A stretch of DNA of 64,000 nucleotides from Rhea pennata (Eukaryota; Chordata; Aves; Rheiformes; Rheidae). This document shows positions 15,407-58,080 of this stretch, one piece after another. Below the pieces are notes generated by a model, which saw only the letters and a program-made list of their open reading frames with translations, was not told the origin of the DNA and did not search any database. The translations under genes were made by a program, and so were the position numbers. The stretch spans positions 93,563,765 to 93,627,764 of the forward strand of contig NC_084663.1 in assembly GCF_028389875.1 (NCBI RefSeq), in the 5' to 3' direction. Within the stretch, counting starts at the first letter, position 1, and every line of letters starts with the position of its first letter.

Positions 15407-15567
15407 ATGACACTCCATTGCATACATCTTTTTCTCTTGCTTCTGCTTGGTTCATGGTGGCCAGATTCAGAGAAACATGTGGTGGGAGCTGCGAAGATCA
15501 GAGAGCACTATATTGCTGCTCAGATCACTAGCTGGACCTACAAACCAGAATCTGAGGAAAAGTCCAG
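15407..15567 (+). CDS. F5: F5 exon 1: signal peptide and start of A1
   Basis: It starts at [18 protein letters not shown], a typical secretory signal peptide with a leucine-rich core. The mature N-terminus aligns with the human one around residue 29 ([11 protein letters not shown]), although signal cleavage could fall earlier. The exon ends in AGTCCAG before donor GTAACA, leaving 2 nt of a split Arg codon (residue 54). Confidence 0.95.
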
Positions 15568-18500
15568 GTAACAAAGTTCAAGATAAGGAGGATGAAACTT
15601 GTCCTCTCTTGTGACAGAAAGTGTTTTTAGTCCCCTGAGGCACTTTAGAGCCCAGGAGGACTTTAGAGCCTGATCTTTTGACTTCAGAGGAACTGTGTAT
15701 CTTTGAACAGCATGATCTGAACTGGAGCAAATGAAGTATTAAAACCTCCTTTTTAGTTACTTGCTTAGTTATCAGAATTATTTATATGTTTTCAAAGCAA
15801 TTTTGTTGAATCTGTTCCAGGGCTTGCTTTTATAATCTTCTGTGTGTTTTTTTTCAATGTCATTATTTTGGGGTATATGGATTTTGAGCAATGTTAAGTT
15901 GAGCTTGTTTGGCAGGATTTTGAAAACTTTCAGACTCTAAAATTGGCTGAAGGAAAAATAGCTTCTAATTTGGTTGCCATCACTTTCACTTAAATCAGAG
16001 CCTGATGAACTTTGGAACTAGCTGTTGTTTTTTCTGAGTTGTTCTGTAGTTTTTGTGAAATATTCTTCCTGAGTTTGGCTGAGCAAAGATTGTAGGATCA
16101 AGCATTGCTGTACTATACTAATTTCAAATCTTTTCAGATTGCACTGCAGAATGGCCAGCCTACATTCACACAGCAAACAAGCATATAAAGTATCTTCTTG
16201 TACAACCAATATTATGCTTAAGATTATAAACACTGCAATTGCAATGCTGTACATGGCAAAACTTTAATCTAATTTAGAATTTTGTTTAAATTAGGCTTGG
16301 TGCATATTCTGCATTCACTATAGTCACCATACACAGCTTTTGTTTGTTCATGAAGTGGCATGAAATGGGAGATAATGTTTGTTCTCTCATCCTATGTTGA
16401 ATGGGGCATTTGGACACTACTGAGTGTTTTATATTGGTGGGTGGCTTGTCTTCTTTATTTTGGTTTAGTTTGTGAGATTTTTTTAATGTGTGTTAGATCT
16501 TGTATTTCTGGATGTTATTGGAAGGTGCATTTCCGGTTCAGATTTAAATTTTCTAAATATCGCTCTTTCAAGACTAATTAAAACGAAGTTCCCATGATTT
16601 CTAAAACTCCCCTTGGAAATTCAATGCAACTGATATGAGCATAATGTCAGAGTGGCAAGATAGGAGAAAATATGATTTAAATGTAGGAAGCCAAATGCCA
16701 TTTGAGTAGTGACCTAGGCATGTGAATTTAGTATTTAGATCTTCATTCTCACCTGCACTGAATGCATCAATGTAAGCATCAGCTGGTATTTCTCTAAGCA
16801 TCACTTAGCAGATAGATGGATTTCACGCTGTAGAAATCAAGTGACTGTCTGAAATCTCAGTTTAAATATTATGTGACTAAGTAGGAGTTTTTCATACAGT
16901 GCCTGTTGAGATATCTCACATAAGTGTTTAGAGCAAGTTCATATCCTGAATGCATCCAACTAACTTTCTAGAATTTCTAGAAATTTAACCAAAAAGAAAG
17001 AAAGAAAAAGGATATTTATTGAGCCTGAGTCTTCAAAGACATTTCAGTATGTAACGCTCTCTGATTTCAGTAGAAGCTGAATGTCTAAGTGCAGTTTAAG
17101 AATATGACAGTTTGCGGGGTTTAGTACTAAGTAACTGAAGAGCTGCTGAAAAGAAAATAGATTCTTCCTGAATTATTACCTTAATTATTTTTCTTGGGTT
17201 TCATTTTCATTTACTGAAAATCACAGGAGTTTAGATAGGTCACTTAACTTCTCTGAGCCTCAGTCTTTTTATCTTCATAGAGTTCTCTTGGTTAGCATGT
17301 GCAAGTGATATTTGTAAGGCACTTGAAAGCAAAGTAAAAATGTATTATTTTTGCATACAATGCTGCTGATTCCAAGATTGAAGGTTATGTATCTAGACCT
17401 GATTGCATTGTCTGAGATTTTTGAAGTGCTAGTAACTTAAGTGTTCTGTTCCTTCTAGCTCTACAATCGCTATTAATAAATTTCCTCTTCCACCCTATAG
17501 CCTGATGTGCAGAGTACATTGACATATTAGGAACAGCATTTGTCAATGAGGATTACATATCACACCCTTCTCCTTAAGAGTAAAATCAAATTTTGTCAAT
17601 GATTTCAAAGACAGCAGAATGAATTGAAACAGGTACTGCTTCTGCCTGACTCTGTTAGTGTGAGGGAGTGTCACAAAAGGATTTACACCTTTACAAAAAG
17701 AGATGTCCTCATTATGCACCCTGAATGTCACTGTGAAGCAGCCTCACTTTTTATCCCTGCCCATTCTCTGTCCATGTGCAGCCCATCAACTTCCCACTTT
17801 CAAACACATACCTTGCTTAACTGAAAGGGCAATATATATATATAAAAAAAGCAAGTAGACTTACTGTTGGATCCAGCAATAGCAAATACCAAGAAAATCA
17901 CCAGTAAATGTGAAACTGAACACACACCATGCTCCCACCAGCCCTCATTTCTCTATTACTCACGTTCTGGAGGTGTTGTATGCTGATTTCTTTCTGGTTG
18001 CTTGAGTATTTTCTAAAATAAAGCATGCGAGAGAGGGGGAGAGAGAGGAAGATATGTGTTGATTGAGTGATTGTCAGGAAACAGTTTTATATTTATCTGA
18101 AAGCACAGCAGCTGCAGATGCTTGCTATTAATGCCATTATACAATCATTGTGGTGAGTCTTAAAGCTCAAGCATGGGACTGAGTAAAGAAAAATCCAGGT
18201 TTCTCTTACTGTTCTGTCAGTTTCATTTCCTGAGATAACTGCTAGACAGCATTGGCATCTATGAGAATCTTTGATCTTTTAATTTTTATCCTAACTCTTC
18301 TGGTTTCAGATTGGCACATTCAGATCCTGTGTTTAAGAAAATTGCTTACAGAGAATATGAAGTGGATTTTAAAAAAGAAAAGCCAGCAAATAAATTTACA
18401 GGTAAATTGGAAGGAAATGTTCTGAGGTATTTTTGTTTGATGCTTCTCTTAAAGCCAGTAACAAGCTAGGCAAGCTTGTACTTTTTTGCCCGTTATTTTG

Positions 18501-21500
18501 CACACCAACCAGACAGATGCAAAGTATGAGGTCTCTACAGTGCACTAGCCCTCTGAGAGGCCATAAAGAAGTTGGATTTTGAGAGGCTGGTGCTCAATGC
18601 TCTCTGCAAATCAGTTGCGCAGTACAGAGTTTTTTTCTTAGTTTTCTGCATCTAGTGAGACTCCCCCTGCATGTTTAGAATTGTACAGAACAGTCACAGT
18701 GATGACACTATGAATTCAATTGGAAAGAACCTAAGGCCTGAGACTGAATAGACTGAATATTGTGATAGATCATTGGAAAGGAAAAGACAACTATGAAGAC
18801 GAGAGTGAGAGATATCCCCTTGCCTTTACCATGTATTACTACTTGAAGTTGCTTTAGGTAGGTGGGGATAGGTTCTCATGCCATCCATAAGTATGGTACT
18901 TACATTCTGATACTTAGGCAGAAGTTTTATACTCCACATGTACTTCATATTAATCAATACGGTAACTTTAGGTGTTACAGCCACTTAAATTTCAAAGTGG
19001 TTGATGGTATCAATTTGTTACAAGTCAGCCTGAAAGGTCTAGCCTATGATCTGATTCCTTTCAGTTTTGTACATTATCCTGTCTTTTCTGAAACTGCTGC
19101 TTTCTTTTCAGAGAAGGAGATTTGCAGAATAGTTTTACAGAATTGCTAAATGGCGGGGAGTAGGGATACAAGCCCGTTTTAAAATCTTTTGCAGGCAATG
19201 CCTAAAGAAATTTGCAACATGGAACTGATTATGTCTTTAGATGACATTCTGTGATTGTTCTTGTTCTGCGACTTCTGGCATTGAGAGTGCTACTCAAAAA
19301 AATGTGCTTGAATGCCTATCTAAACTTTTAGACTTTAAAATATCTGCCTTTCTTAGTAGTGTCTGATTAAATTTTATGTGAAGGATTCTTAGAAATTCCT
19401 AATGAACTTCAAAATGAACCTTTTGATAAATATCTGGAAAATACCTTTTTTCAGATCTACCATTTCCTATGATTTTAGTTTTAGTTGCCAACACACGATT
19501 TGTAGCATTGTTGACTAAGCTGCAGGTGTTAAATTCCCATGTGCCTTTTTACAGGTAAATTTTCATTGTGATAGTATTACATACTCTGCCTGTGTTTTGT
19601 ACAACCTATAGTTTATGAGAGCTCATGTTCCCTGCTGGGGAAGGAGAACTCTTCCTTTCACTAAACGCTGTTTTACTCATATTTTGCTCTCTCCTTATCA
19701 TGAATAACTACAGGACTGCTGGGACCAACTCTTCGTGCTGAAGTGGGAGATACTTTAATAGTTCATTTTAAGAACATGGCTGACAAACCAGTCAGCATTC
19801 ATCCCCAAGGCATAGCTTACAACAAAGAGGCTGAAGGTAAATACTATAAAAACTCCATGTTTTGTTCTTTTACTTGTAGACTACTGCATGAAATATAGAG
19901 AGGGGCCCAGGCCAATGTTTGGAGACATGTGTAGCACAAATACCTGTTGATCAAGCGTGGGTTAGAACTTCGCACCTGTTAGCTCCATTCTTGTTCATCA
20001 GTGTAGTTCTAGCATGTAGTTCTATACATGCCAGTGTTGTATGGCATGTATATTCTCCACACCAACTCCCTGCCTGTGTTTGGGTGTTAGCAATCTGAGG
20101 AAAAACAAGGGTGCTTCATGCTTCCTGGCAGAAGCTGAACTTACATACTTGGATAGTACTAATATAGATAGATGGTTTTCTAGTTTGCCACAGTGGTTGA
20201 GTCCTATATGGATAGAATTAGCAGGTTTCTAAATGCTCAACTTCATGCTGTCCAGCCATTTAATTTCATCTAATAATCAAATTAAGAATGGAACACAATT
20301 ATGATGTTGGAACCAAGTGTTAGTCAGATGGACTGCAAAGTTGCCACAGGAAAGTAAGTGTAATGGTGGAGAGACCTTCTAAAATTTTGTAGGGCTGCAA
20401 AGACAGCCTGCGCCAGGCATAGAGACTGACTCTTGTGCTAGAGAGTATGTATTCTTATAAAGAGAAGCAGCTTCAACTGTGGGGATTTATGAGATGCCTT
20501 CTCCCACAATAACCTGAAAGTTGCTGTTTCCCTGGCTTAAACTGAATGGAACGGAGCAAAGACGTGAACCCGTTGCCCCTACTTCTCATAGAAAGAGCTC
20601 CAGCTATGGCTATTATAGCAAGGAAGAGAGTGACCGCAGAAAAGTGTTTGTGTTGAAGAGGATCTGTTTCTTTAGGGATTTTGGACTTTTCTTTCCCAGT
20701 AGAGATTTTAGTGGAGGAGAAAGGAAGAGACAGGGATTCTAAACTTCAAAAGTTTTGCAAGGCAACACTGATGTAGAAAACCCTGAGAAAGTCCTCCATG
20801 AGCTGATCTGTAGACTGCATGAGGGTCTGACAACTTTGTGACCTTTGAAACGAGTAGGTGGTTAGCTGTTTGCAAAGCAAGTGAACTTCAGGACATTATC
20901 TTGATTCCTCTCGTAGTGCTTGCGGTAAACATCCACAAAGTTTTCAGAGGACATAATCTTGTAATTGCAAAATATTCTATTTTAGTAAATGTAAATCCTT
21001 AAAGTTGGAATTAAAAATATTTCTAAATCCCTTGCAGTAGTGTACATCAAGGTATTACTGGTAAAGGACATGACAGTGTTGATAATATTATTCTAATACT
21101 CAGCATTTCATGCCTGGCTTTGTGTTGTTTTGCCCCTGGAGCCCTCGTTTGTTCTGGTGACAAAAGAGCATAACATGCATCCAAGTTGAAAGTTCAACGC
21201 CTGCACTAGCACAAAGTTTGAATTGCCTTGCTCTAAGTGCTGAGCCAGAGCTCTGATCAGCAGTTTACAAATTACTGTGTTGATGATGAAGCTGGTTGAA
21301 ATGTTTTGAATCCTGGAAAAATGTGTGAGAAATACTAATATTCTGAAGGATTAGGAGGCAAAAGTATTTTCTGTTTTCAAATAACTACAGAACTAGTTGG
21401 AATTTACTTTTATTTCTTAGGTTTTTTGGGTGTCTGACTTTTAGGGTGTTTATTTGAGGGTTTCTTCATTGTGTGGGTACAAAAGGAGTTTTCTTGCTTT

Positions 21501-24500
21501 CCATGGAGTTGAATAGAACATATGTTATTGGAAGTGATAAGCGATTCAGTTTAACTATTATGTTGATTTGCCTTTTGCACCTAGAATTTTGATGATATCT
21601 CTGGATCCTCTCTGAGATCGTGTATTTTTGTTTGATATCATAGGCAGAGATTAGGATCTGTGATATTACTGCCATTTGGATTTGCAGTGCACCAAAGGCA
21701 TAAGGCAGCGCTAGCCTGCACAATGGCTGGCTTTAAGTAGAATAATCAGAAAGCTGAAAAAGTAGGCAGTTAGTATTCAGCCTCCGCAGAATGACATTAA
21801 GCAGAGGCTGAAGCTTCATGACATCCTAACCCCAGTCATGCTAGTAAAGAGCCCCACCTTTTGGCAGTAATGACAATCCTAGGAAATTTTGACTCAGTAA
21901 GAAATAGGACAATGAAACAGATGCTCTGCTTGCTCCTGTTCTTACTCGCAATATGAGTGGAATCTGGAGTCATCTCAATGAAACTGAAGTATGATGTAGG
22001 CAAGAAATAGATAAAGATTTTGCATACTAATTATAAGAAGAACATTCTATATGCTTTAGTTCTTCTTCATGCCACCTTATTGCATGGCTCTCTTCCTGGT
22101 AGGTTCTCTATATGATGACAGAACATCATCTGTGGAAAAACAAGATGATGCTGTGCTTCCAGGCCACATCTACGTATATGTGTGGGATATTACTGAAGAA
22201 GTTGGGCCAAGAGAAGCTGACCTTCCATGTCTTACTTATGCCTATTATTCTCATGAGAACATGGCAATGGATTTTAACTCTGGTCTGATTGGAGCATTGC
22301 TCATCTGTAAGAAAGGTAATAAAACCATTTGTGTAGTAGGTATCAGCTCTAAGGTAATGTGATCTCATTCTTAATAAAATTAAGGTTGTATGATAATGAG
22401 GGACAGTATATTATTTTCCTTTCCCCATGTTTACATGTAGTGCAAAGAAAATGCTTTTCAATGTCTTTTCTTTCAGATAGTAAAATTTTAAATGCCTACT
22501 TTTATGCAGGTTAGTACAGATTAGCCCTATAATTGTAGAATGGACAGTGTTATTAATAGATAATGTTATTAATTAATAGATAGTGTATTAATTGCATTTT
22601 CAGTTGCTTAACTATTAAATATATGACCTCCGCTGTCCCATCTCAGAATGGATATTTTTTAAAACTTCACTTGAACTAATTCAGCCATTCCAGAGAATAA
22701 GTGAAGGAAATAATCATTGCTTTACTCATGCCTTTTCAAGCCTTCCCGATTAAGAGGTTGTAGCTCCCTCTTCTGTAACAAAGATTTGAATCTCTGGGCA
22801 GTGTTTCTTTTGGTAGTATTTTGAATGTGTCTAAATTAAAACAGATTATGTATCTTTGAAAACTAAGGTGCATGCAAACAGAGACTTGAGAGTTTAGCAG
22901 TTTGTCTCTGGATTCCACTAACCTCCATTAACACAAACTGATGTCTTCTAGGACATAACTGTTAGGTAAATGCTGTTGGTTTGAGGTAAGTCTGAAATAG
23001 CATGCCACTGAATAAGCTACCTAACCTATTTGCTGGTCTCTTGAATCCTAAATTCATCAAATTATATAGTCGTCTTTTAGTAGAAGTCCTGTGAGTTATT
23101 TAGCTTGGTCCTTCTTCCCTGAAGTTTGAGTCAAATGTTTTGTATAGACAGCAGACTGCATATAGTTGGACCTCAAACCTTCCTTGAAAGAAAACATACA
23201 ACTAGTTCAGTGTGGGTTGCACAAAAGCACTCTTCTCACTGTTAGACATCCTTTTAATTACAAGGTGTGCCTGTTTATATCACCCCAAAGGATTGGCATC
23301 AAGATTAATCATGTTCTTCTCAAAGTTTTTGGAGAGCTAGTGCTTCTAGTGTTATTTAGGATTTGTTATCACCCTAATATTCTTGAATTTTATTCTTTCT
23401 TTATGTGAGTACACACACATTTTATTGGTGGCATTAATCTCGATGAATGATTTGGAATTGTTTTCCTTTCTTCTCTGGTTTCTCAGATTCATAGATATAT
23501 TGTGGGATGAGTTGGATATGAGGTTGAGATGGATTGGTTTGATCACTGTCTTCAAGGCAATTTGAGTGTATGTTTCTGCCTAGAACATATGCAAATTTGC
23601 TTATCTAAGCAAAGGCAAATGCATAACTACTCAAATTTTTAAGATTTTTGGACAGTGTTTGAGCACTGTATGGGGAAGATGGAAGCCGAAGCAGAGAGAT
23701 ACTGTAGATGTACAAAAAGCCTGACACATTATGAGCAGCATAGATGGTATAAGCTGGGAAGGTTATAGAAAGGAAGTTTTTGAGTTAAAGCACTGACTGA
23801 ACACACTAAATCCTCTGTTAATCTGAGGCTTCCTCTGTGCAAAAAAGCTGGATTTTGTAGCTTGTAAATAAATAGACTTGTTAGAAATCACACCTGTATC
23901 ACAAACTCTACTAGGTAGTTTCTTATACTTGATTCAGTTTTACAATATTTGTCAAAGTCTTTCTTAGGTAAAGACAGTTTGTTGAGAGGTCTGTTTTATG
24001 CATTTTAAAGGAGCTTCTTAGCTCAGTGCAGTGCTTGAGAAGACCATGTTTGCATTGCAGATGACTATATTGTAGTTCCTCTCTTTGTCTGGTAGTCCAA
24101 GAGAAGAGGCCAGGGTCGAATGGGATCAGAAGGCTGTTCTGCTCTCCCATTTGTTAAGGTGATCCCTGCAACACATTGCCAGAATTGTCTGAGGCAATTC
24201 ATTGCCTATTGCTTAATCTCCTCTCGAATATTATAGGCTTTCAGTTTCATGGTTACCTAACCCAAGAGCATTTTCAGAAATAAGTTCACTTTATGACAGT
24301 TCTTAAGATCATTTCTGGTCAGGCTCAGTCATTACATGCTGACAGTTGAAAAGAGAGTCGAGAGGAGGTAAGCTCATTAAGTACATATGAATGTCATTAC
24401 ACTGATGTGGAAACTGCTTCACTTCTGCTAGAATTAAGACCTGTTGTTTCTCCTTCAGGAAGCCTAGAGGAGGATGGGTCGCAGAAACTTTTCAACAGGG

Positions 24501-27500
24501 AGTATGTGCTGATGTTTGGTGTGTTTGATGAAAGCAAAAGTTGGCAAAAGTCATCATCACTGAAGTACACAATTAATGGCTATGCTGATGGGACATTACC
24601 AGGTACTGTGCAACCATATGCAACCTGAAATGAGCATTGGTGAAGACTGAATATTGCATTTCTTTGCTTTGTTTTGTGCAAGAGAACAGGAATGCAGAGG
24701 AATGGGATACATCTTCTTTATAACATGCTTATGGTCGTAAGCATCTGTGTTGCTGGAAGGACATCAAGCCATTTTGCTGATACATTCGAAGAACAAGATT
24801 ACTAACTTTAAAAAATAAGAAATTCCTCTTTCTTTACTCAGCTGCTGATCAGTCAGTGACGTGGTTAATTGAAATGCTTGTTTTAGAGCGCATGGAATGT
24901 ATCAGATGGAAAGCTTCCTTCAAGTGAAAAGTCATTTACCAGTCATTCAAACAACTGAGTGAGAGGACTTGGAAGGTGGTAATGGGACTGTTCTGTCATT
25001 AGCATTTTCCCATTGTTCTCCTAATGAACTGCTTTCATACTTCTCTCCAGTCCATTGAACAAATAAAAAAATGTGTTGGTTTTTGGTGTTGTTGTTGTTT
25101 CTCTTTTAGACAAATACCATTGCATAGAGTAGTTACTTTCATTAAACCTAGCCTTATTCTTTAGCTTGGCTCCTTGCCATATTTTACAAAGACAGATCTG
25201 ATGTCTGAAATAGTATGTGGCTTTTCTACCGCCTTTTACAGCTCCACATAAGCCAAATTGTTACTTGCATGTAAGATTTAGGCACCTAGTCTTCCATTGA
25301 CTTTAAAGGATTTTGGTACCTATTTTATTTACCTGTTTTTGAAAATTATTCTTCAGGAGCAGGATTTTCTTATTATTATTATTATTTTGAGCAGAGATTC
25401 ACTTCTGACCTCCTGTGGAACATGGTGAACTTGCATGATTCACCTGCATTCTGAATCTTGTTCTCCTTTTTCTTTCAGACTTAGAGGTTTGCACCTATGA
25501 CAACATTAGTTGGCATTTAATAGGCATGAGTTCCAAGCCAGAAATCTTCTCCATTCATATCAATGGCCAGACCATGCAGCAAAGACATCACCGAGTTTCT
25601 ACTGTTAACCTAGTGGGAGGAGCATCGACCACAGTGAACATGACCGTCAGTGAAGAAGGAAGGTGGCTGATATCATCTCTTGTTCAGAAGCATCTGCAAG
25701 GCAAGGAAACATATATTTACTCAGCATTTTAGAGGTTGTACTTTTCTTCTGTATGTCCCAGAGGGCTCCTGCCTTTTTTCAATGGTACAGTTACTGCGTT
25801 TCGGATGGTTGACATACTAAGAAACCACTGGAGGTAGGGCATTCTGTTGGAATTAGAACTACAGAACAAACTAAAAGGCATTGTTATCTGCAGCTATACT
25901 GCTTTGTGCAGATCACAGAGCCACAATGAGTCAGAGTTCTAGCTTCTAGGTCTCTGGGGAGTGTTCAGATAAACAGAATTACAAAAATTTCCCGTTCCTT
26001 CTGTTTCCTGAGAAGCTGAGCATTTTCAACTGAGAACCACTCAATCTGGTGAAAATATTTGCTGTTCATCTTTTGAAAGTGGGTAATAAGTTCAGCTGAT
26101 ATTTTCAAAAGCACAAGTTGAATGAACTGCTGTATCCTACTTGATTGATGTGGGCTTCTCAAAAGGTGCCAGCCTACGTGCTTACAGTCTTTTCAAGCCT
26201 GAAAAGATAACATTTGGATGAACCAATGCTTGCAAGCAGCCTAAGCTAAAGAAATGAGAAATGCAGTGGAAGTGGCAAGGGTGCATAAAATGAAAAATCA
26301 CTATTGTACTCTGCTTCTTTTCAATTAGCTGGACTGCATGGTTACCTCAGTGTAAGAGGCTGCGAGGACAAAGAGGTGAAGAAGAAGAGTCTCTCCTTTA
26401 GAGAACGCCTTATGGTCAAGAACTGGGAGTATTTCATTGCTGCAGAAGAAGTTACTTGGGATTATGCCCCAAATATTCCAGACAACCTTGACAGGTAAAA
26501 TAATACTTTGTCAACGTAATATGAAGTGTTAACTTGGAATCACAGAATAAGTTAAGTTTGAGAAGAACTCTGGAGGTCATCTCACTCAAATTCACACTCT
26601 GAGAAGGGCCAACTTCAATGTTAGTTCCAACTGCAAAATTAGACCAATTGCACAGGGCCTTTTCTATTTAAGTTTTCAGTATCTCGAAGGATAGGTACTC
26701 TGCAACCTTTCTGGGCACCTGTTCAACCTCACTGTGAAAAGGTTTTTCCTTATAACTAATCAGACTTTATTGTGTTGCAGCTTGTGCACATTCCATCTCA
26801 TCCTTTCACTATACAACTCTGAGAAGAGTCTGGTTCCATTTTCTGTGAAACCTCACGTTAGGTAGTTGAAGATAAATATAAGATGCTCCCTTAAGATGCT
26901 CCATTAATCCTCTCTTCTTGAGGCTGAACAAACCCTGTCTCTGCTTGTATGTCATGCTCCAGCCTTTAATCATCTTGGTGACTCTCCATTGGACTCACTC
27001 CAGCATGTGAACATCTTTCTTATGCTGGGAAGCCCAAAACTGGACACCTTCTTCCTAATGGGGAGCCCAAAATATGAAATGGCTTAGGAAATATTCTATC
27101 TAGCATGCAGATCTAATTCCTAAAGAGAAAAGTAAGGAGGAAATACTTCTGGAGAATAGGAGTTTTAAAAAGATCTGTATAATAAAGCGTTTAGAGAGTG
27201 GGAGAAAGATTTCTCTGTAAAAAATGATCTTTGTGTGACACCAAGAGGAAATGCAGTAAAAGTCTTAATAAATAAGCAATTTGGGATATTTTGTTCAATT
27301 TATCTCTAAGGTACATGACGTCATGGTACACAGTACTGCCAGTGCAATGTACGGAAAAATCTGTGCTCTGACAATCCCTCACTGCTGGAGCACTGTTGAC
27401 CCTTGCTGTTCATGGGTCAACTATAGAACCTCTTGTTTCATCCTGGTAATTATTCAGATAAACTGAAACTGGCAACTTTTCAAGCTGATGCTCATAACAA

Positions 27501-30500
27501 CCTTTAAAAATTCAAGCAGAACAAGGAAAATTCCTTAGCCCTCATGGAGTAATAGTTACATATACCTCCTTAGTTTGCAAAAGTTATATTTTCATATAAT
27601 TCTTAAGTACTCCTCCTTTTTTGGTATGGTTGCTTCCCTTCTCATTTATTCTTGAGCTATACCTGGCATACTTGTCTCCTTTTATATCTTTTTCCCTGCT
27701 AATTACATCAAATTGATGGTTATGGCATCAGTTACCATCTCTGTGCTCTGTTTTTTCCTGCCCTGTTCAGAATTGCAGATCACAAATTTATCCCTGTTCA
27801 CTAACCTTTTTTTAAAGGACCAGCAACCAGGGCAAACACATGACTCTATGTTACTTCCCAGTATTTACCCTGGTTTTGCACAGCGTTGAGAATTCTCATG
27901 TTTTTAAACGTAAATATAATGCAACTTACTGTATGGTACTTGACTGAGATTAAGGTTATCTGAGCACTATTCCTGGCTCTCCTGGAGTCTTTGCTACTGT
28001 AAGCAGATAGTTAATTTTTCCTGTCCTCAACTCTGCTGTAAGAGGAGAGCAGTAATTGCTGCTAACTCTTGAAAATGCAGCTACTACTTCAGTTTCTGTT
28101 TCTTTCTTGCATCTATACACTATCAAACTCAATGAAAATTCTGATAGTGATTGTCATATGTGACGCTGAAGTATGAGTAATGTTCCAGGCCTCTTCTAAC
28201 CTAATTTGCTTTTCTTCCCCCAAGTGCTGAAGTTTATACCAGTTTTTTGACTAGCAGTTCTACATTCTAGGAGATGTCACTATTCAGATTGTTGATCATT
28301 TGTCTTTTCCTTTATATTTAAGACACTACAAAGCACAGCACTTGGACAACTTCTCAAATCTCATCGGTAAAAAGTATAAAAAGGCTGTTTTCAGGCAGTA
28401 TGCAGATGCAAGCTTCACCAAGCGCCTGGAAAATCCTCGACCTAAGGAAACTGGAATTTTGGGACCTATTATCAGAGCTCAACTCAATGACAAAGTCAAA
28501 GTAAGTGTATCAAATCAGAGATTATTTATAATATAGCAAATTTTCTGTTTGGCAAAGACCCATATGACCTAGTGTGGTTTGTTTTTTGTGAAATAATATA
28601 GCTAATGTTGTGAAAATCGGCCCTATTAAAAGATACAATTCCAAGTGACAGACTTATGGTTAAATTTTTCATCACTTTCTCTGTAATTTCTATGATTTTG
28701 TTTTATTTTACAACATAAACACATTTCATTCACAGTCTTTATAAAGAATATTTATATGTTGAAGCTAGTCCAAAATGAAGAAGCTTAGGTACAGATGGAC
28801 TTCTCAGGAAATTTAGAGCTGAGAATTAAGCTTCACAAGCCCCTCATTCCTAATGTTGTTATTTTTTCTGGCTATTTTAGATAATGGTACTCACTTTTCA
28901 TAGTTAGTTCTTTCATGGAGTTATTAAATGAAACTACAGAGCATTTGCATTAAAAGCTTGTGCTGCTGTTTTGCAATGTCACATCCCTTCTGTTGTCTGC
29001 TTAGTGATATATCAAGTGATATATCACAAAGTTTAATGACCCCTAGTTGCCACCATGACTGTGTGACTCTGACTTGGAATAGCACAATATTTCTTCTTTT
29101 TTTCTGGTTTCATCCGGAATAGGCTGGAGAGTTTGCCTTTCCTTCCCACTTCCCCTATGGGTCCTGGAACATGGGAAAATAATTTTTTTAAAGTATTTTT
29201 CTCCTATATTGAAGATTCTTAGGAACTTTAGTCAGTAACTTCATCCTCCTTGAGGCAATATGTGCCTAGCAGCTGCAAGAGAACATGTGCTTTTTTGATT
29301 TACCAGACAGAAGAAGCTGAACCCCACTCAATGAGTTCTACAAAGCCTAGCAGCAGGGGATCCTGCTAGGTACCAGCAGCATTTGGTCTGTAGATTATAT
29401 TACGAGATGGTGTTTTAAGGCATCTCTTCCCTTTCTAATACTTCTACAAGGCTGAAACCAGACAAATTCTACTGTAGCTGGAACTTTTAGTAATGTATTC
29501 AGATAAGGATTTTCTGGATACTAAATTCATTCTTTTTCACTTCCCTATCAATATAGATTGTATTCAAAAATAAGGCCCATCGACCCTACAGCATTTACTT
29601 CCATGGAGTGTCACTTTCAAAAAATGCAGAAGGAGCTAATTATCCTCTGGATACCACAAGTAAGAAACGAATGAATTGGATTTTGCATACCACTGACTGT
29701 TGTGGAGGGTTTCATTAGTTTGAAAGGGATGTTGTGGACTGGGAGAGCTGAAGTTTCTGTTCTTCCTTTACTGACCTATATTACCTTATAGAGAAACAAA
29801 GGTATTATATGCAAAACATAGATATTGGCACCTCATTTTGCTGTTCTTGTTTATGATTCTAGAGAAGGACTGGACTCAACTTCAGTTATTTGAAGTAGCT
29901 TCAACTGGCAAAACTGCACCGATTTCATTAAAAGGTGTAACATGACACTATCTAAAGATCTGGCACTAAATTTGTATCATCATTGTTCTTCCTCTTCATT
30001 TTTCCTTCAGGCAACAGCACCCAGAGTACAGGAATTCAACCAGGGATGACCTATACTTATGAATGGAAAATTGCTGAAACAGATCAACCCACTGCTCAGG
30101 ATGCACAGTGTATTACAAGGCTATACCATAGTGCTGTAGATATTGAGAGAGATATAGCCTCTGGACTGATTGGTCCACTTCTGATTTGTAAAAGCGAATC
30201 ACTGACCCAGAAGGGTGTGCAGGTAACATGTTTGGCAACATCACAGAGATAGATTCTGTTCATTAATATAATTTGAACTACAATGCAATTTGGTTCTGCT
30301 TGCCCTCTGCTTAATGTGCTGTGGAAAAGCTATCAAATTAATAGGTTTCTGAAGAAATGACTTGAAGAAATAGTTCTCTCATTGTCCACAACAGTTAGAG
30401 GAATGACATTCTGATTTTTTCAATATGAACAGCGTTTCAAGAAGAAGTGAGCCTGATTTGAAAGTCTCATTGTAGACGTGGTAGTAAACTTCCCTGCTTC

Positions 30501-33500
30501 TGTTATACCCTCACACTCTAAAGACATTTTGAGACACTCTGACTCAGACACTCTGTTAACAGATTTAAACCATCTGAAAATCTCAGACATCACTGAATCC
30601 AGAGCAACAAAAACAAGCTTAAGAAGTTTGGGAGAGCAGTTCTTCCTTTTTTTGTCCATGGAAATGTTGTTTGGCAAAAGCTTGAGTGTTACTTGAGAGA
30701 AAAAATGTTGAAAGGTTAGGTTTAAGTCAAACCAGGTAGCTGGCCCTTTTACAGAGAGACCAATTTAATGCTATCTGCATGCCAGCAGTGCTAGTGTCTT
30801 GCACAGTGTCCCACCATGGCTTGGTTGCAGCAGTAACAGTGTCACTTTGAAGTCTTGACCCCATAGTCCCTCTCACTTAATTCCTGGGTCTTATTTATCT
30901 CAAGTCTCGTAGAGCTTGTAGCTTGCATATAGGTAGTAGATTTGGGTCCTTAATACGTATAACTGCTCATAAAATGTATCTGTGCTGTGTTTATTGTCTT
31001 TCAGAAAAAAGCAGATATGGAGCAGCAAGCAGTGTTTGCTGTGTTTGATGAAAATAAGAGCTGGTACATAGAGGATAACATCAAGGACTACTGCAGCAAC
31101 CCTTCCAGTGTTAAAAGGGATGACCCCAAGTTCTATAACTCAAACATAATGCACAGTGAGTGGGAAATCAAGCTGAAGATTATGAAAACTCATGTGAGCC
31201 AAAGCATTCGATGATTGCTCATTCTCATATGTAGTGCAAAGAGGGAATTCTCTAGAGGGACAGTGATTGTCTAACCAGGACAGACAGTACGGTACAGAGA
31301 TTTACAATATTTTAAGGACTGGACTAGCTTTGGGCTGTGAAGCAAAGGCAAGAGTTATTTAACTTTGACACAGCATCCTACTGATAAGAGATATTATTTC
31401 CAGGGCTGGGATCTTCATCAAGGCTGTTGTGGTTTCAGCCCTGTGACAGTCTCTTTTACAGTACAAATGTGAGTCCAATTCAGTGAACTGATGTCAAAGA
31501 ACAAGAAGTTTTAAAATTCTAGCTCTTTAGTTTTTAAACTGGTGAGGCATGAAAATATTTAGACCTCTTCTATTTTGCTTTCTTTTTAGCAATAAATGGC
31601 TATGTGTCTGACAGCAGTGAAATCCTTGGATTTTGCCAAGATAATGTGGTTCAGTGGCACTTCTCCAGTGTTGGCACTCATGATGAGATTGTCTCTGTTC
31701 GTCTTTCTGGGCACTCTTTTCTATATCAAGGGAAATATGAAGATGTATTGAACCTTTTCCCAATGAGTGGAGAATCAGTCACAGTGGAAATGGACAATGT
31801 TGGTAAGTGGCCAGACTGCGCTGTCTATTTCGTAGCTCCTCTAAGACTTTCTTTAATTTCTTGTCCGTAAGGATATATCCAAATAGGAAAGTTTTTTGGA
31901 TAAACACAGCAACGGAAAATCTTGAATCATCCCCCAAACCAATTGATGTATATGGAGTTTTATTGTCTACACAAACTTGGTGCATGTCATAGCTGTATAC
32001 TGTGCCACTCTACTGTGGCTGTTTTAGTTTATCTTTTCCACCCCACAGTTAAGATTAGGGTTAGCAGTGGTCATTTTAAGGCTATTCTAAGTTTTCTTAT
32101 GGGAACAGTCCAGTATCAATTCCACTGTATGATTCACAGCTTTGCTACATACTTTTCCATCCTGAGTTAGCTAAAATGGGCCCAAGCTGTCAAATTATGC
32201 TAGTCACTGTTGAATATACCTCATCTCAGGCCTATGGTCATTTAGGAGCAGTAAAGTCTACCAGACTGAATCAGACCACTTGTCCATCAGTATCCATCTA
32301 ACAGGCTTAATAATGGAGATCCTGAAAAGATGACACTAGAAGTCACGTAGTGTGCACTTACAGCATTACCTGCCAAAGGGCAGAGATTCCTCCTCACTGA
32401 AGTATGTGAGTATTGGTGATGGTCTTAAAATCTCAGCTGGTTTAGATATATTTATCCTACTTAAATACTGATTAATGTTTCTTTATTTTTTGTCTATTTA
32501 AATAACTATTTCTTTAGGCCTTCTAAACTTCTTTTCAGTGATCTCACTGCCTCAAGGCCTTGTCAATTTTAAAAATGTATTACAAGTTAGGTGGGTTATT
32601 TTTATTATTTAAGACTAGGGAATCATTAAAACTCCATCAGACTTGATAGAAATTTCTCTGGTAATGGAGCTATACACTTCCCTGGTTTTGATCTGTGATC
32701 TGTTCTTTCCACCTAAGCCATGTTTTCTTTTGTGAATTTAGTTATTTTTGTTGGACATGAGGAAAGCTATGCAGATCACTAAAGTCTGATAAAACCAGAA
32801 AAAATCTATTTGACCTTTTATTAGAAGCTGTTTTTCTCAGGCTCTGTCATTCTGTGTTCTATTTGTCATTTCTGATAGTTCTAAAAGCAAACTATAACAA
32901 GCAAAGAACTCAAGCTGATGCTACTTAGGGAAACAGATTTTATATTGCTCTCTGCAGATTCTTGTTTCAAATGGAGAACTTAAGTTCTGTCTTGAAGGTT
33001 TCAATAAGCCCTCCAAAAACTAGTCATTTAGATGTTCTGCTTGGCAGCTTAATGTTTTGTGCCCAGACTCAAAATCCCACGTCCTCGGACAATCCCTTGT
33101 CCTGTTTTTTCAATCATTCAAAGGGGTTTTAAAATACAATGTGTTTGTAAAATGTTTGTGAACGTTGTCTCAGAAAATGTTTGTTGTGGACAGAATTGTT
33201 TTTCCTTGTGGCAATGCATACAACACTAAGGACAGAATAATTTTAACTTTTTACTTAGAAGACCCCAAATTTAGATCAAGATCTAAACAGAGGACCTTTT
33301 ATATCATTTCTTCCTCTTTCATCTCCATCTTTCTTTCATGGTGTGTATTTCAGCTCAGGTCCTATGTACAGCTTAATCTTTGGAGAAGAGCTCCAGCTCT
33401 TATATGTATTTATTTATATGTCTTAATTATTTTTTATTACAGTGTGAGCTCATATGAATCCCATCTGAGGATCAACACTCTGCTGTGGCAGGAGCTGTGG

Positions 33501-36500
33501 AAACAAACCCAGCAATTTGCCCTGTCCATTCATGTCATGGGCAAGATTAACTCCCATAAATAATGCATATTAGGAAAACAATTTTTATTTCAATTGCAGG
33601 TACTTGGCTTTTAGCATCCTGGGGTACCCCAGAGATGAATTACGGCATGAGACTGAGATTCAGAGATGCCAAATGTGACTATGAGGAAGATTACGCGTAT
33701 GATATTGTGGATTTTGCTTCCACTAAGACTGTTAAAAATGCGCTTTCCACCTCAGTTGAAGATGAGGGAGAAGAAGAAGAAAGTGATCAAGAGGACTTGG
33801 CTTATCAGGACTACCTGGCCAATGCTTACTCCATCCGAAGCTCAAGGAAGTCAGAAGGCAATGAAGAAACACAAAACCTTACAGCTCTGGCCTGGGAACA
33901 GTACTCTGGCACTGACACTGCGAGTTCTGAAGTGGCTCGTGGCTCAAACCCAGTGTCTAATAGGAGTAATGAATCTGCAAACACTTACATGCTCTTAGAA
34001 AGTCTTACCACTTCTCTTCCCTTAACTGAGGCTGAAAATTTGACATTACAGTCAAATTACGCATCAGTCACAGCAGAAGAGGATGTATTTTTAACTAGCA
34101 CAAGTGATGGAAAGTGTGACTTGGTATTTGAGAATAGAAGCCTAAGTAATTATGGAGTAGATCATAGTAATGTGTCTGGAAGTGAACACTTGTTGAGCAT
34201 TGAGGAAACCCAAATGAAAGCTGCAGAAGAGCTTCTCACTGATGGAAATTACAGTCATTTTTTTTCAGAAAAACATCAGGAGGAAAGCACAGGAAGAGGA
34301 AATGATAACATTGATCATAAAAGAAAAAGGCGAAACTCACTGGCCACTAAGTTTTACTCTGTCCGAAAGATGAGTGCCCTTCTACGTCATCTACGAAATA
34401 AAAATGTCTCATTCTCTGACAAGACAAATGAACCTCAATCCATGCGTCATCCAGAAAATACATCCAATGTAGCCATGGTGGGAATTGACCAGCTTCCAAG
34501 TGATTATGATGATGAACTGGAAGAGGAGGAAACTAAGATGGGTAATGACACGCATGCAATTAACTTGACACTTGCTTTGGAACTCACTGTAGAAAGAAAC
34601 GAATCTAATGCATACAGCCTCTCCGGATTTAATCTATCCAAAGATAAACAAGGAGGCACTTCTTTAGATCACCCTTTAGGTAATATAAGACCTAATTCCA
34701 GTCCTGCAATAGTGAAGAACTTACTGGAAGCATCATTGCCCAGAACTGTCAAGTATTCATCTAAAATGACAAATGAGGAATGGAATTTGGTCTCTGCAAA
34801 GGAGAGTCTGGGATTAGAGGCAAATTTAGATAAATCTGTTAGTGATAAATTAAATCATGGTCACAGAAATGGTACAGTATTCCTAAATGAGAAGCATATG
34901 AAGAAGTACTCGCATCTAACGGAAGGAAAACAGGGAGGGAGCCACATGCACTCAACTCTGAAAGGAAAGAAGAGGAGCAAGAATGATACTTTGAGTACAT
35001 TTGGAACCTTCATCAAAACCCGAAGGAAGAAAAAGGAATATCCAAAGACTACTTACTTACTGAGCCCAAGGAGTAAAAAGCCATCCAAACTCACCAAGCC
35101 TACTGTGAAGTTCAACTGCACATTGTTCCCAAGTGAGGCCAACCACACAACACAACCACATTACATCAATGCAACGGGGGCACCCAATGATGTCAACCAT
35201 ACAGTGCATCTGAGTAGAGCCAACCACGAAGGGTTGACAAACCACACACTGACCCCACGACAGTTTAAACCATCAATCACAATTGGGCTTCCCAATGAAA
35301 ATGGGGACTATGAATATGTTACGAGAGACTATTACAGTGAGGAAACATCAGGTGGTGAATATGAATACCATTATGTGAGCTTTGAAGACCCATACATGAC
35401 AGACCCAAAAGTGAATATCAAAGAACAACGTAATCCAGATACCATTGCTGGACATTACTTGCGTAGCAAAGGGAACGAGAGGAGATACTACATTGCAGCT
35501 GAAGAGGTTTTGTGGGACTATGCAGGATTTAAAAAAAGGTTTGGCTAAATTCTTTGCTTTCGTTTGACACATCATCCTAATACATACTGGGAAAATGTGG
35601 TTCAGATGCTGATAAAATTAAGAGCATCTATTACATGCGATGTGATTTCCAACATCTCGGTTATAGAATTCTATGGATTTTTCATGGGAGGTAGGGGACC
35701 CATTTAGAAATGTTATATAAAGAAATTACTGTAAGAAAGAAAAGCAAAATAACTCATTTTTTTCTTAGCCTCCTTTCATGGATTTACTAGAAACAGTCTT
35801 TAAAACAGTAGTTGAAAAACCCACCATAAATGGGTGGGGAGGGGAATTTCCAGTTAGTTTTGTTGTACTTGAATGACCTGTTTTAGTTTCACCTTGAGTT
35901 CTTGAATGCTAAAGGAGAGACAGAATAGAGACCCATTTGTACAAAGTCTTTCCAGGAATTTGATGGAATAACTGATCTAATATGTGCATGAGCTTGTCTT
36001 AAACGTTCCTGCTGTGTTTGAGTATTCAGATTTCATCATCAGAACTGATATTTCTACTTCCACTATGGGTTTTTTTAATTGGGAATTTTCTTTCAGCACA
36101 ACAATGAATGACAAAACACGTCAAAATGGGGGCAGCATCAAATATAAGAAAGTGATTTTTCGAAGCTATACAGATAGTACCTTTACAACTCCTCAGGAAG
36201 AAAATGAATATGAAGAACACCTTGGCATCCTGGGGCCAGTTATCCGGGCTGAAGTGGATGATGTCATCCTGGTGGGTTACTGTTTTGATATGTGTGCAGT
36301 ATGTTAGGATTCTTCTGGAGATCTAACAGGGTGACACAGAACTGTTTTGAATATACCAAAAAAAATTGAAAGAAAGCTCTAGAGGAAACACATTTTCAAG
36401 GCCAGAAATTGCAATGAGGACATAAGAGCACAGTGGCATGTTTCACTGAAGGGGTGTAAGAAGCCCCTTTCCTCTCCTCTCCACAGTAAATCCATGTCTG

Positions 36501-39500
36501 TTTTTCTTCTTTATATTTACCACTGTTACAGTGTGGTAAATACAGTTTATCAAATAACTCAAATTTATCAATTTTTAATCAAATCCTTGTTTATTAAATA
36601 CTGTTTTAATATAAAAGCAGGCTTAAGCTTAACAATAAATTTTTAAAAGATTTTTTAAACCTAGACATAATTGAAAATACTACTTTTTAGATGAAAAAGG
36701 GAACTTTTTTAAAGAGATTAAAAAATTTCCTTCCAAGATGAAAATACATCTTTGTCCAAAGAGTATACTTTCTTCTGAAAACTCTTGCTGTAAATGTGTT
36801 GGCCAGTTCTCCTGAAAACAAAAAGGATGGAGAGGAACTGTATCTCTAGTGATACAGTAGTATATTTGTTTTAGGAAGCAAATTAATGTAGACTTTTTGC
36901 TTCTGTCTGTATCATTCTCCATACAGTCTTCCAAAACAGAGGGATGGACTAGATAGGGCAGAGTTTACTTCAATATGAGTAGTATGCAATAGGAATATAT
37001 TGAGCTACGTTGAAAACGTGAGTAAGAAAAGAGAAGAGGCTGTCTGAATTTGGAAATATCATTCTGTAAGGGGAGGTAAATATATAATCTCTAGGATTAA
37101 GGAGAAGCACTGGCTTCAGTGAGAGTGATACATGCAGAGGTCTCGTGTTACAATATGGTTATCTTTTACCCTTCTCTAGTGCAGCCTCACAGAAGAGCAG
37201 AAGGAGTAGAAACTCCCAGTCTCACTGTTTGCTCTAAAGAAGTATATCCAGTAGCGAAGACCTGCAATAAAAGTCCTAGGACCCTAGGCTTGATAGAAGA
37301 TGGGGCCTTGGACGCGTGCTTCATGCTTTCCAATTAACTGCTTGCATCGAAGGGTGTCACTCTCTGAGATCTCAAAGGCTATAGCTGCCAGATTTGCTGT
37401 GTACAACTTGGCCTGTAATCATTGTACAAATTGGGACTCTGCTTTAAGATCACTGAAATGTATTATCTGGGGACTCTGTTTTAACCCAAATTCACTGATC
37501 AGAATCTACTGCTTCTTTTTCTAGGTTCATTTTAAGAATATGGCATCCAGACCGTATTCCCTTCATGCTCATGGACTCTTCTATGAGAAGTCCTCTGAAG
37601 GGAGCATTTACGATGATGAGTCTAGTGCTTGGTTTAAGGAGGATGATGCTATTCAACCAAATAACAGCTATATATATGTATGGTATGCAAACAGGCGATC
37701 TGGACCTGTGCAGTCAGGAGCAACTTGTCGGTCCTGGGTCTACTATTCTGATTTAAATATGGTAAGGAAGGCAAAATAGAGGTGGTAGTGTTACTGGGAT
37801 TGATGTGACTGTGCAGTTCTGGAAAAGTAAGCTGCAGAATGCTTTTTAGATAGCTGTCCTTTCTTTGGGGTCTGATGTTCCCCTGTCTGATATCTAATCT
37901 CTTACATTGAGTTAAAAGAGGGAGTAAACCTGCAATTCTTGTAATATGAAAAATTCAAATTAGTGAACTCTTTGGTAGATTAGGCAGGGGAGAGTTAATG
38001 GGAAGTCAAACCTTTTCTCTTAAGTTTTCAAGACATGATGTATTTCTGCAGAACACTATGGGTTTTAGATCAGGCCCTCAGTTAGCAGTATAGCACAGTC
38101 GACAAATTCCCCCCGGCAGCCTAGAATTTGAAGTCTAATGTAAAAGCACAGGTTGGATATGCCCTATTCCTCCTAAAAGATAGGAGCAATAACCTGCCTT
38201 TCAGGGCGGGGGGGGGGGGTGACAATTGATGAACAAATATTGTTTTGCATCTTTCTCTGGTTAATTTGAACTAAGTCAAAAACAGAAGAATAAACAGAGT
38301 GGAAAATCAAGGTATTTTGAAGTTTCTGTAACACAAAATCATAGGTCACTAATCAATTACAATTCTTGAAGACAATTTTAAAACAGCAGATAGAGTTTGA
38401 CAAATCTTTGTTTTTAAATTTGCAACTTTCAAAACAAGACCACACATGAGAGACTACTAAACTAAATAGAAATAGAATGAGAGAGGCAGGACTCATGGAT
38501 CAAATCTACAGGGAACTGGGAGGAGATTAGTACAGTGTTAATGTGGGTAATCCACAAGGGTCCACATGAAGCCAGAGTCTGTAATATGTGATTAATGAGA
38601 AGTGGTAGGAATTGTGAATAACGAAGTTAACAAAATCTGCCAATGACAAAATCATTTAGATTACTAAATTAGATATCTAAATTATCATTTAGATATTCCT
38701 ATTAGTTTAGGAGAGGAATTTGAACATCACAGGCTCTGTGAAGGATTTTCCTCAACATTTAGCTATTGTCAAAAAGAGAAGATTGGGGTGCATAAGAAAT
38801 AGATTATGGAATAAAACAGAACACTATGGGGCTGTAATATGAATTAGTTGTGCAGCCTCACGTGGAATGCTAAACATACTATTTCAAAGTGGTTATTGCA
38901 GAAATTTGGCGAATTCACGAAAGAGCAAATGAAAATGACTTCAGAATGAGGAAAAACGAGTGAAAGAATGAGAAAGAAGGAGCAGAGAAGAAACCTGATG
39001 TTGGCTAAATTCAGAGACAGGGTCCTTTTTTATCTCTAGCTTGCAGGTAATCCACCCTTAGCAAATCCTCAAATTCAAAAAGCTAAACAAAGGCTCAAAG
39101 AAGTAGTTTTATAAGAATGCAAATTCTTGCATTTTGACGTCTTTTGAGAAATCCACTCATAATATGGATTTACTGTTTTCTAGGAAAAAGATATTCACTC
39201 TGGTTTGATTGGGCCAATACTGATATGTCAGAAAGGAACCTTCAATATGTCGAACAACAACAGAACACCGACTCGAGAATTTTTCTTACTTTTTATGGTC
39301 TTTGATGAAGACAAAAGCTGGTATTTTGACAAATCTTCTAGAAGGCCTTGTACTGAGAAGACCCAAGAGATGCAAAAATGCCACAAATTCTATGGTACTT
39401 ACTCCCTTTTGCCTATTACTCAGTCTATTCGGAGGGTATAGGGAAAAGGCTTGGAATTGGATGAATCTCAGCTCACTGTGTCTTTGAACATACCTAAGTT

Positions 39501-42500
39501 CTGCACATGAATAAATTATGAAAATTATTAAAAGTTATTATTTGGTGTTATCCATTGTGCCTGTAATCGTCATATTTTATAAGCAGAGACTAGCGCTGGC
39601 TAGAAATTTTTCAACAGAATATTTCTCTCTCTCACTCACATGCATCTACCTTTGTACATTAAAAAAAAAAAGAAAAAGAAAAAGATTGAGGAAACAAAAC
39701 ACCTCTTTTTTCACAAGAAGCTAATTCCCTGGAAAATGGGAAATTTGTGCAAGAAATTTTAAAATACAATAATAATCTGACAAAACAACTAGTTCTGCTG
39801 GAAGACTTTGAAGCAGCTCTAGGACAGCCCTTCTTGTACCTCTCTGTGGGTAGAGATTTTAGCCATGTAGAGTTGAAGTTGAGGAAGTGGCTAAATATTC
39901 AAAGTTAACATTTTCTTCTGTTCAGGATAATGGTCAGTGATGAAATTTTCTGAAATCCATCCTATACGTGAGCTGTCTTTGAAAACCTGATGCTTCTGTG
40001 TTATAAATCACATGAACAAGTGATCATATATGAAAGTAGTGTTTGGAGAGATGGAATCTGCATTTTTGGAGAAGTGGAGAATCTGCATTTTGAAAATATG
40101 ATCTATAAAATCAGTTGTTGATCAGAGGTGTCAGTTGTGGCAATATATTTCCTTATTCTCCTACCTGCTGTGTCTTACAAGCAAACTGTTCAAAACATCT
40201 GGTGAGGTTCCTATATTATTTGAGCTGATGGTACAACAGACTATTAAGTGTGTAGCACTTTAAACTGAGAAAAAATTTTGTCATATACCTTACTTTATTA
40301 AATATTTGGCTCATTTTAATAACTGCATTCTAGTACTTTAAAAGAGCTGTTTGTGAACAGTTAATCTTGATAACAATGTTTTTTCCCCCCAGCCATTAAT
40401 GGGATAACCCACAATTTGCAAGGCTTGAAGATGTATGAAGGTGAGCTAGTCCGATGGCATTTGCTGAATATGGGAGGGCCAAAAGATATTCATGTTGTTC
40501 ATTTTCATGGACAGACTTTCATAGAACAAGGAGAGCCAAAGCATCAGCTTGGTACATACACACTCCTTCCAGGTAAGTATCAGATTGCAATAAATTTTCT
40601 TGGGTGGCCTTTCTAGTCTGTCTTCTTTATATCTGTGTAAGGGTGAACAGAAATTGGCTTTGGGCACAATGGGAAAGTGTTTGAGAGCAGTAACAATTAA
40701 TTTTGTGTATGATGATCAGAAGGAAAATTCAGGTCTTTGCACGTCATTTAATATTGTGGGAGAGGGGAAATGAAGAGGAATTGTCCTCTAAAACAGGAGA
40801 TACTGGGTAAAGTTAGGAACAAAACATAAGTACTTGGACAAATGTTCTCCTCTTACATGAGAAGGGATATAAATGGAAGATGAATGTCAGTATAGTCTAT
40901 AGCACTAACTATACAGCACCACTATATGTAGTAAACTTAATAGTACTGTTCATTACATGGGTACTCAGCACTGTGCTCAATGTGCAGACATCTACTGTTG
41001 CATGTATCCAAGGTTGTATAGTTTATAGCAGCAGCAAAGCTTAGGTTTTCATCTGGTTAGGTTTTGATTCCAATCTCTGTCTCCAACTGGAATTTGCCTG
41101 TTAAGAAAAGATAAAGACTGAGATGGTGGTGGCTATTGCTTTGACTGAAATGTGTTGCAGGTTATTTAATTCTTCTAGGTCATGACATAGGATTATCTTT
41201 GGTTTAACCTCCAGCCTCACTATCACCAACCTTATGATAGCACTAAACTTCTTCCTTCTATTTTTTCAAGGCTTATTTCGAACAATTGAAATGAAGCCAC
41301 AGAAACCTGGCTGGTGGCTTTTAGACACTGAAGTGGGGGAATATCAACAAGCAGGAATGCAGGCATCCTATATGGTTATAGAAAAAGGTACTGAACTAAG
41401 GTATTTGTGGCTGGGGGACTCTGGCTATAAAATCATCTCTACCCTTTTAGGATCATTAAAAGAAATTTGGGAAGTTACTTAGAAAAAATCTTAATCAGAT
41501 TAAAGAAATGAGTTTCCAAGTAGGAAATGATTACTATAATTTAGTCTAGAATAAAAAACATTCAGCCTTTAACATACTGCCTTCAAAGTAGTAATTTTTC
41601 TTAGACTGATCAGTGGATTAAACTGTTGAGAGGAATTGCAGAGATTAATTCGGCCTTCTCTGGAAAAAGAGTGGTTATGTTACAGTATTACGAAGAGTTG
41701 TTCTGAGTGGTGTTGTCTTAGAGCTTTCTACCAGACTATATGTTGGAGTAGCCTTCCTTTTCTTTAATAACAAAATTACTCTGCTGTCTCTAGAATGCAG
41801 GATTCCAATGGGGCTAGCAAGTGGAGTTGTACTTGATTCACAAATCAACGCTTCACATCATATAGGTGAGTTAACACTTGTGAAGGTCCAGGCATGCCCC
41901 TGAGTATACTTGGCAAAATACTGGAATTCCAGATTCTTTTGGCATCTCTTGATACGTCTTACAAGATTAGTTCAGCAGTGAATCAACTGTTAGATTTAAA
42001 AGCTCTCCAGTCCTGCAGGCACAGAATCTGAGCTGTACTAGGAAGCCCTCATCATTATATTCTAACAGTGTCGCAGGTCCTTTGGCAGTAGCACAAGCCT
42101 GAGAGCCAGAAGGTCCCCTGTCAGTGGCTTGCTGGATGATCTGGAACAAATTTAGCTCTATCATTTTATCTTTCAAGTTCCCTTCTTGAAAATCAACACC
42201 AAGTGTTCAAAAGGCTTTTGAGATTTGACCTGCCCAAACATGTCGTGTGAGCTGTGAAAGTGCAAAGAATTCTACATGGGCAATAGCAAATAAAGGTGTA
42301 CAGATTACAAACACATGCAGAAACACACATCCTTTCCCTTGAAATAACAAACAAATTACTTATTTTGGAAACCTCATTTCACTGTGGATCTAACTTTCTT
42401 TCTTTATGTCCTCCCACAGTGTCATGAAGGCTTGAAAGCTGTGTTGTCAAACATTTTCAACATCAGTTGTTAACCTGGAAACCTCCTTATACAGAGGGAA

Positions 42501-57379: not shown

Positions 57380-58080
57380 CTTCCCCTCAGGGAAAGGGCG
57401 GCGATGGGGAGGCTGTGGGGGACCGCGGTGCGTGGCGGCATCTCGGCAGCGGCAGGAGGGGCCTCAGCGCGGCTGTCGGGGAGCGCCGTGACCGTGTCCC
57501 CTCCCCCTACAACGCGCCGGGGCCGCGGAAGCCAACGGACCGCCCCGCGCCCAAGCGTCCGTTACGGCCCCAGCGCCCCGCCCCCCGCCGAGGGGGGAGG
57601 GGCGCCCCCGCCAAGCTCGCGCCCCTGCCCCGCTCGCGCCCCGCCGCCACGTGCTTGCCCTCACACCGCCCTCCCCTGGAAGAGGCGGCGGCGCCCAATC
57701 AGAGGGCAGCGCGGCGTCCCGCCCCACCGGGCGTCGGCCAATGGCCTTGAAGAGCAGCGCCGCGGCCCGCCGGCTAGAGGTGCCTTTGCGAGGTGGCGGC
57801 GGCGGCAGGAGCCGCCTGGGACGGGGCTGCGGCCACCCCCCCCCCGCCCCGTTCTCTTCCCCCCTCCCGGTACCGGCCCGTCATGGCGGGGGCGCGGGGG
57901 GCCCGGACGGGCGGCGGGCGCTGCTGGGCGCTGCCCACGGCGCTGCTCTGCGCCTACGGCTTCTTCTGCAGCGTGCGGCCCTCCGAACCCTTCCTCACCC
58001 GCTACCTGCTGGGGCCGCACAAGAACCTCACCCAGAGCCAGGTACCGGCGCGGGCGCGCCTGTGCGCACGTATATACGTA
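57380..58080 (+). promoter_or_regulatory. SLC19A2 CpG island promoter
   Basis: A sharply GC-rich, CpG-dense block in an otherwise AT-rich region covers the SLC19A2 first exon. It has a CACGTG E-box (57,648-57,653), two CCAAT boxes (57,695-57,699, in CCAATCAG, an NF-Y-type site, and 57,738-57,742) and several GC-box-like CCGCCC/GGGGCGG runs. There is no TATA box near the start. This is the usual layout of a broadly expressed housekeeping-type promoter. Long open frames on both strands here are by-products of base composition. Confidence 0.85.
57883..58041 (+). CDS. SLC19A2: SLC19A2 exon 1
   Basis: ATG at 57,883 (context CCGTCATGG) starts [12 protein letters not shown], followed by membrane segment 1 ([12 protein letters not shown]) and the family motif region [19 protein letters not shown]. 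Human has Pro where this has Arg40. The N-terminus is shorter than human. An in-frame GTG at 57,793 is ignored. Donor is GTACCG after CAG. Confidence 0.94.

Follow-up and report, generated by a model that had tools for sequence, protein, structure and literature searches.

The weight that APC cleavage carries in people is shown by human factor V Leiden (R506Q). Outside mammals, the described system closest to ours is the factor V (FV) of Pseudonaja textilis, also represented by the cofactor subunit of pseutarin C (PDB: 4bxs). In the available sections of PMC8288481 and PMC2994417, the cuts reported for human APC in P. textilis FV fall at Lys507, at Arg742 and at further, unplaced positions within 508–742; cleavage took 750 nM APC as against 10 nM in the comparison, apparently with human FVa, and activity was kept. 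Exchanging the 306 stretch, as described in the accessible text of PMC8288481, gave a P. textilis FVa that is cut in its human R306 stretch, yet stays active, and a human FVa that is still partly inactivated when carrying the snake stretch (i.e. partial resistance only); R306 alone thus does not decide the outcome. The same text ties retention of A2 after cleavage to a compact A2 ‘loop 2’ that is conserved among reptiles and takes another form in mammals.

In the portions of PMC8288481 available to us, Arg306 is described as conserved only in mammals and the snake form of the 306 stretch as well conserved across snakes and reptiles, with the suggestion that Arg306 arose later than Arg506; the mammal-only statement comes from this one paper, and the word ‘bird’ is absent from its main text. 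The accessible part of PMC11511063 presents pseutarin C as being without APC sites; for position 306 this fits, though it goes further than the cleavage data do. As regards the enzyme, fast cleavage at Arg506 is said in the available part of PMC7293249 to need a basic APC surface formed by loop 37, the calcium loop and the autolysis loop. Among the matches listed for the open-access literature we found no report of APC cleavage of a bird FV, and the available portions of PMC9637641, PMC13183543, PMC12390032 and PMC13200511 hold nothing on this subject.

We analysed a 64,000-nt stretch of the Rhea pennata genome (‘the window’), in which tblastn with human FV, together with a spliced model, places F5 (coagulation factor V) at 15407..48162 on the plus strand, the human query matching exons from position 15491 on. 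The model consists of 25 coding exons encoding 1941 amino acids, with 24 introns of consistent phase and no internal stop; acceptors are AG throughout (24/24), and donors GT (23/24) or GC (1/24). The human heavy and light chains align in order and free of stops, with the B domain between them, giving the arrangement A1-A2-B-A3-C1-C2. Downstream, on the same strand, lie exons of SLC19A2 (57922..62377; query residues 29–340), a gene that we take to be the neighbour of F5 in human; the intact 25-exon model and the presence of SLC19A2 beside it thus identify the gene as the F5 ortholog. A SELP query returned no match inside the 64,000-nt window at an E-value of 0.01.

When exon 7 (26329..26494, plus strand; the A1–A2 linker and the start of A2) is compared with the PDB, five FV sequences are matched through their heavy chains with E-values from 2.8e-24 to 1.2e-14, closer than the best ceruloplasmin (6.9e-7) or the best FVIII (1.6e-5). 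For the A2 stretch the top whole-chain score belongs to ceruloplasmin, from three repeats summed, the best single stretch among the matches listed being that of P. textilis FV (156.7 bits). Pfam assigns exon 7 alone to 0 families, and PF07732 was found in 0 of 1 genomes genome-wide; the joined F5 heavy chain does match this family. The donor of intron 6, directly 5' of exon 7, is the GC (AAG/GCAAGG; window positions 25701-25702), the sole non-GT among the 24 donors. Whilst our data come from a single assembly (1.27 Gb), an error in the assembly or gene model, or a pseudogene or paralog in place of F5, strikes us as very improbable: the 25 exons keep consistent phases and hold no internal stop, SLC19A2 is in place, exon 7 finds its best matches in the PDB among FV heavy chains, and both the FVIII gene and the other F5-related matches sit elsewhere in the genome, outside the F5 locus.

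From the conserved cysteine of the A1–A2 linker (codon at 26361-26363) to the tryptophan, the FV of all three species (human, P. textilis and Rhea pennata) has 22 residues with both ends counted, upholding the preliminary description, in which the human and rhea loops were of equal length and needed no gap. At gap-open penalties of 11 and 8 no other alignment equals the ungapped one (score 77); it pairs human Arg306 with a GTG codon (26376..26378, plus strand), which encodes Val335 in precursor numbering (mature 307), so that the valine claimed for this site is confirmed, with no arginine there. Lowering the penalty to 5 yields four alignments with gaps, each scoring 78, of which the displayed one still pairs the valine with R306; at 3, the linker splits into gaps and R306 pairs with Lys336. 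The linker columns are likewise gap-free in the PDB comparison of exon 7.

Arg343 (26400..26402, plus strand; the human 314 column), common to P. textilis FV in the motif LSFRE, had been named as the nearest arginine; at eight residues it is the nearest downstream, but the nearest overall is R328, seven residues upstream. Lysines come closer to Val335 than any arginine, with Lys333 two residues before it and the basic run Lys336–Lys338 (26379..26387, plus strand) immediately after; further on, Arg345 (26406..26408, plus strand) stands opposite human Arg316. Such residues invite the reading that the site has simply moved, avian APC cutting at Lys336–338 or at Arg343/Arg345 and A2 being released as in mammals, all the more so as APC turns to alternative A2-domain positions once three sites are mutated (PMC8288481, in its available sections). 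We regard this as unlikely, despite its being partly compatible with the explanation that we prefer below: P. textilis FV has an arginine and a lysine at 309–310 as well as the LSFRE arginine, yet the cuts reported for human APC are at Lys507, at Arg742 and at unplaced positions after 508, and human FVa bearing the snake 302–308 stretch shows no R306-like cut, again with human APC and with R313, R316 and R317 lying outside the swap (accessible text of PMC8288481 and PMC2994417). The further idea that a cut at the nearby arginine might replace that at R306 is answered in part by the same protein, which shares this arginine, yet has no human-APC cut identified there in the available sections of these two papers; this we take as mild evidence, based on human rather than avian APC, that R343 does not stand in for R306.

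How unusual is the change at 306? The 32 arginine positions of the human heavy chain are occupied in rhea by arginine at 11 and by some other residue at 21, including lysine at 5. Across the human 301–322 window only 6/22 residues are identical, as against 422 of 706–709 aligned residues over the heavy chain, an identity as low being found in 44/688 heavy-chain windows. With two thirds or so of the arginines altered (21/32) and a linker that is poorly conserved, an altered arginine at 306 is unsurprising. A selective loss of the APC-site arginines of FV was considered and rejected, since 21/32 heavy-chain arginines have changed anyway. A peculiarity of birds is similarly unsupported, P. textilis having threonine at 306 and Arg306 being described as mammal-only in the available part of PMC8288481.

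Further along the heavy chain, exon 10 ends just past the site corresponding to human Arg506, where we see an AAG codon (30211..30213, plus strand) for Lys535 (mature 507), in the context TQKGVQ. It is matched by Lys507 of P. textilis FV (VKGVQ), KGVQ being common to both. The statement that both main APC sites are absent therefore stands in so far as there is no arginine at 306 and R506 is replaced by lysine, but is overstated, the homologous P. textilis lysine being cut by human APC, if only at high enzyme concentration; on our analysis, Lys535 is best called a weak APC site rather than an absent one. The region of human Arg679, covered by Lys702–Asn706 (KTVKN; 33725..33739, plus strand), is also without arginine, the column itself being loosely aligned and holding Asn or Lys according to the alignment, with lysines at 702 and 705. 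The arginines at which thrombin activates FV (709, 1018 and 1545) are all kept: Arg739 (33836..33838, plus strand) lies opposite human Arg709, and motifs identify Arg1150 in LLSPRSKK (35069..35071, plus strand) with R1018 of the B domain and Arg1281 in GHYLRSKG (35462..35464, plus strand) with R1545 before the light chain, given what we assume to be the human letters of these two motifs.

Exons 9 and 10, with the intron between them, occupy 29557..30222 on the plus strand, and a reptile-like A2 loop 2 spans their junction. Within stretch limits of our own choosing, this loop of rhea FV is identical to that of P. textilis at 12/26 positions versus 5/26 for human. An EG pattern seen in A1 and A3 of both human and rhea FV is missing from human A2; its presence in A1 and A3 of both proteins suggests that the mammalian loop 2 is the derived type.

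The partners of the protein C pathway were detected exon by exon, rather than as joined genes. Protein C lies on contig C9, its protease exon matching human APC in the PDB with an E-value of 2.2e-66 and factor Xa with 9.4e-47, and keeps its catalytic triad (His211, Asp257 and Ser360). Next to PROC, at G000:C9:26329284-26345521 (minus strand), there is an additional pair of exons, one of the Gla type and one of the trypsin type, which match human protein C at 60% and 41% and perhaps belong to a tandem relative. PROS1 is represented by 11 matches at C1:100172-100203 kb that cover query residues 1–634 apart from 41–74 and 511–581, 3/11 having an internal stop that probably reflects exon edges, and a THBD-like open frame of 777 amino acids matches the piece of thrombomodulin searched at 43%. 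FVIII, found at G000:C11:3484000-3502000 (two matches with a stop inside the matched stretch, again probably at exon edges), keeps R562 in MDQRGNQ and a thrombin arginine in IQVRS. In the R336 column FVIII has a lysine, in CPEERLMKM (L011 1501-1761, minus strand, G000:C11), though R562 is kept. From the exons of PROC, PROS1 and the THBD-like gene, and from the retention of FVIII R562, the protein C pathway looks present. Its loss was rejected as a candidate on the grounds that these PROC, PROS1 and THBD-like exons exist. For the enzyme surface, we compared twelve positions that we take to form the human APC exosite; over the aligned exons, 4/12 are basic in rhea versus 5/12 other basic residues kept (Fisher p 1.0), so that a selective loss of the exosite was likewise rejected.

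Taken together, valine and threonine at 306 and lysine at 506 in the two non-mammals, the reptile-like loop 2, the kept thrombin arginines and the exons of PROC, PROS1, the THBD-like gene and FVIII lead us to a reading that we hold to be likely: an intact, ordinary F5 ortholog with a non-mammalian A1–A2 linker, the Arg306 APC site being a mammalian gain that was absent from the bird/reptile ancestor. Avian APC would then clip factor Va slowly at Lys535, perhaps also at a linker lysine, and avian factor Va would lack the cleavage at R306 by which release of the A2 domain is aided in mammals; shut-off of prothrombinase would lean more on the cutting of FVIIIa by APC, and on antithrombin, TFPI or plasmin. 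Saying this, Lys336–338 could, from their sequence, serve as a cut site, which we count against this explanation.

The opposite polarity, an original Arg306 that birds lost and that reptiles lost as well, whether in the same event or independently, giving a more procoagulant FVa under selection, appears to us quite improbable. An APC site of FVIII does lie near the equivalent linker (R336 in human, lysine in rhea), and a basic P1 residue near FV 306 / FVIII 336 may be old, pairing of these sites requiring gaps; against this, both non-mammals compared carry unrelated residues at 306, and turnover of arginine is high across the heavy chain (21/32), so that selection is not needed.

A wider and more tentative proposal is one that we consider possible although doubtful: that shutting off factor Va via A2 release, built on R306, on flexibility of loop 2 and on an APC exosite that is strongly basic, is a mammalian invention, and that the whole protein C pathway persists in birds with FVIIIa and cell signalling as its main fields of action. 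The rhea protein has no R306 and a lysine at 506, yet protein C, protein S and thrombomodulin are still encoded in the genome, from which it follows that the APC cut sites are not universal; this raises the question of what rhea protein C is for, and advises caution in using bird plasma as a substitute in APC tests.

The sequences compared with rhea FV are those of human and P. textilis. Gene and domain order are the same as for human factor V (PDB: 8fdg, 7kve), at the heavy-chain identity given above (422/706–709), the differences being Val for R306, Lys for R506, a 679 region without arginine and a loop 2 of the other type. Where a mammalian-type, APC-sensitive factor Va has arginine at both 306 and 506, the rhea protein thus has valine and lysine. 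Rhea FVIII is homologous to rhea FV in its A1–A2 architecture, its linker differing by an acidic insert. P. textilis FV shares with rhea FV the LSFRE arginine, Lys506 and a similar loop 2; at 306 it has threonine rather than valine, neither being arginine, and Cys642 of the A2–A3 disulfide of its venom form (PMC8288481, available sections) is unmatched among the nine cysteines of the rhea heavy chain. Rhea pennata FV hence extends to this genome the pattern of Arg306 in mammals only, as published in the accessible text of PMC8288481.
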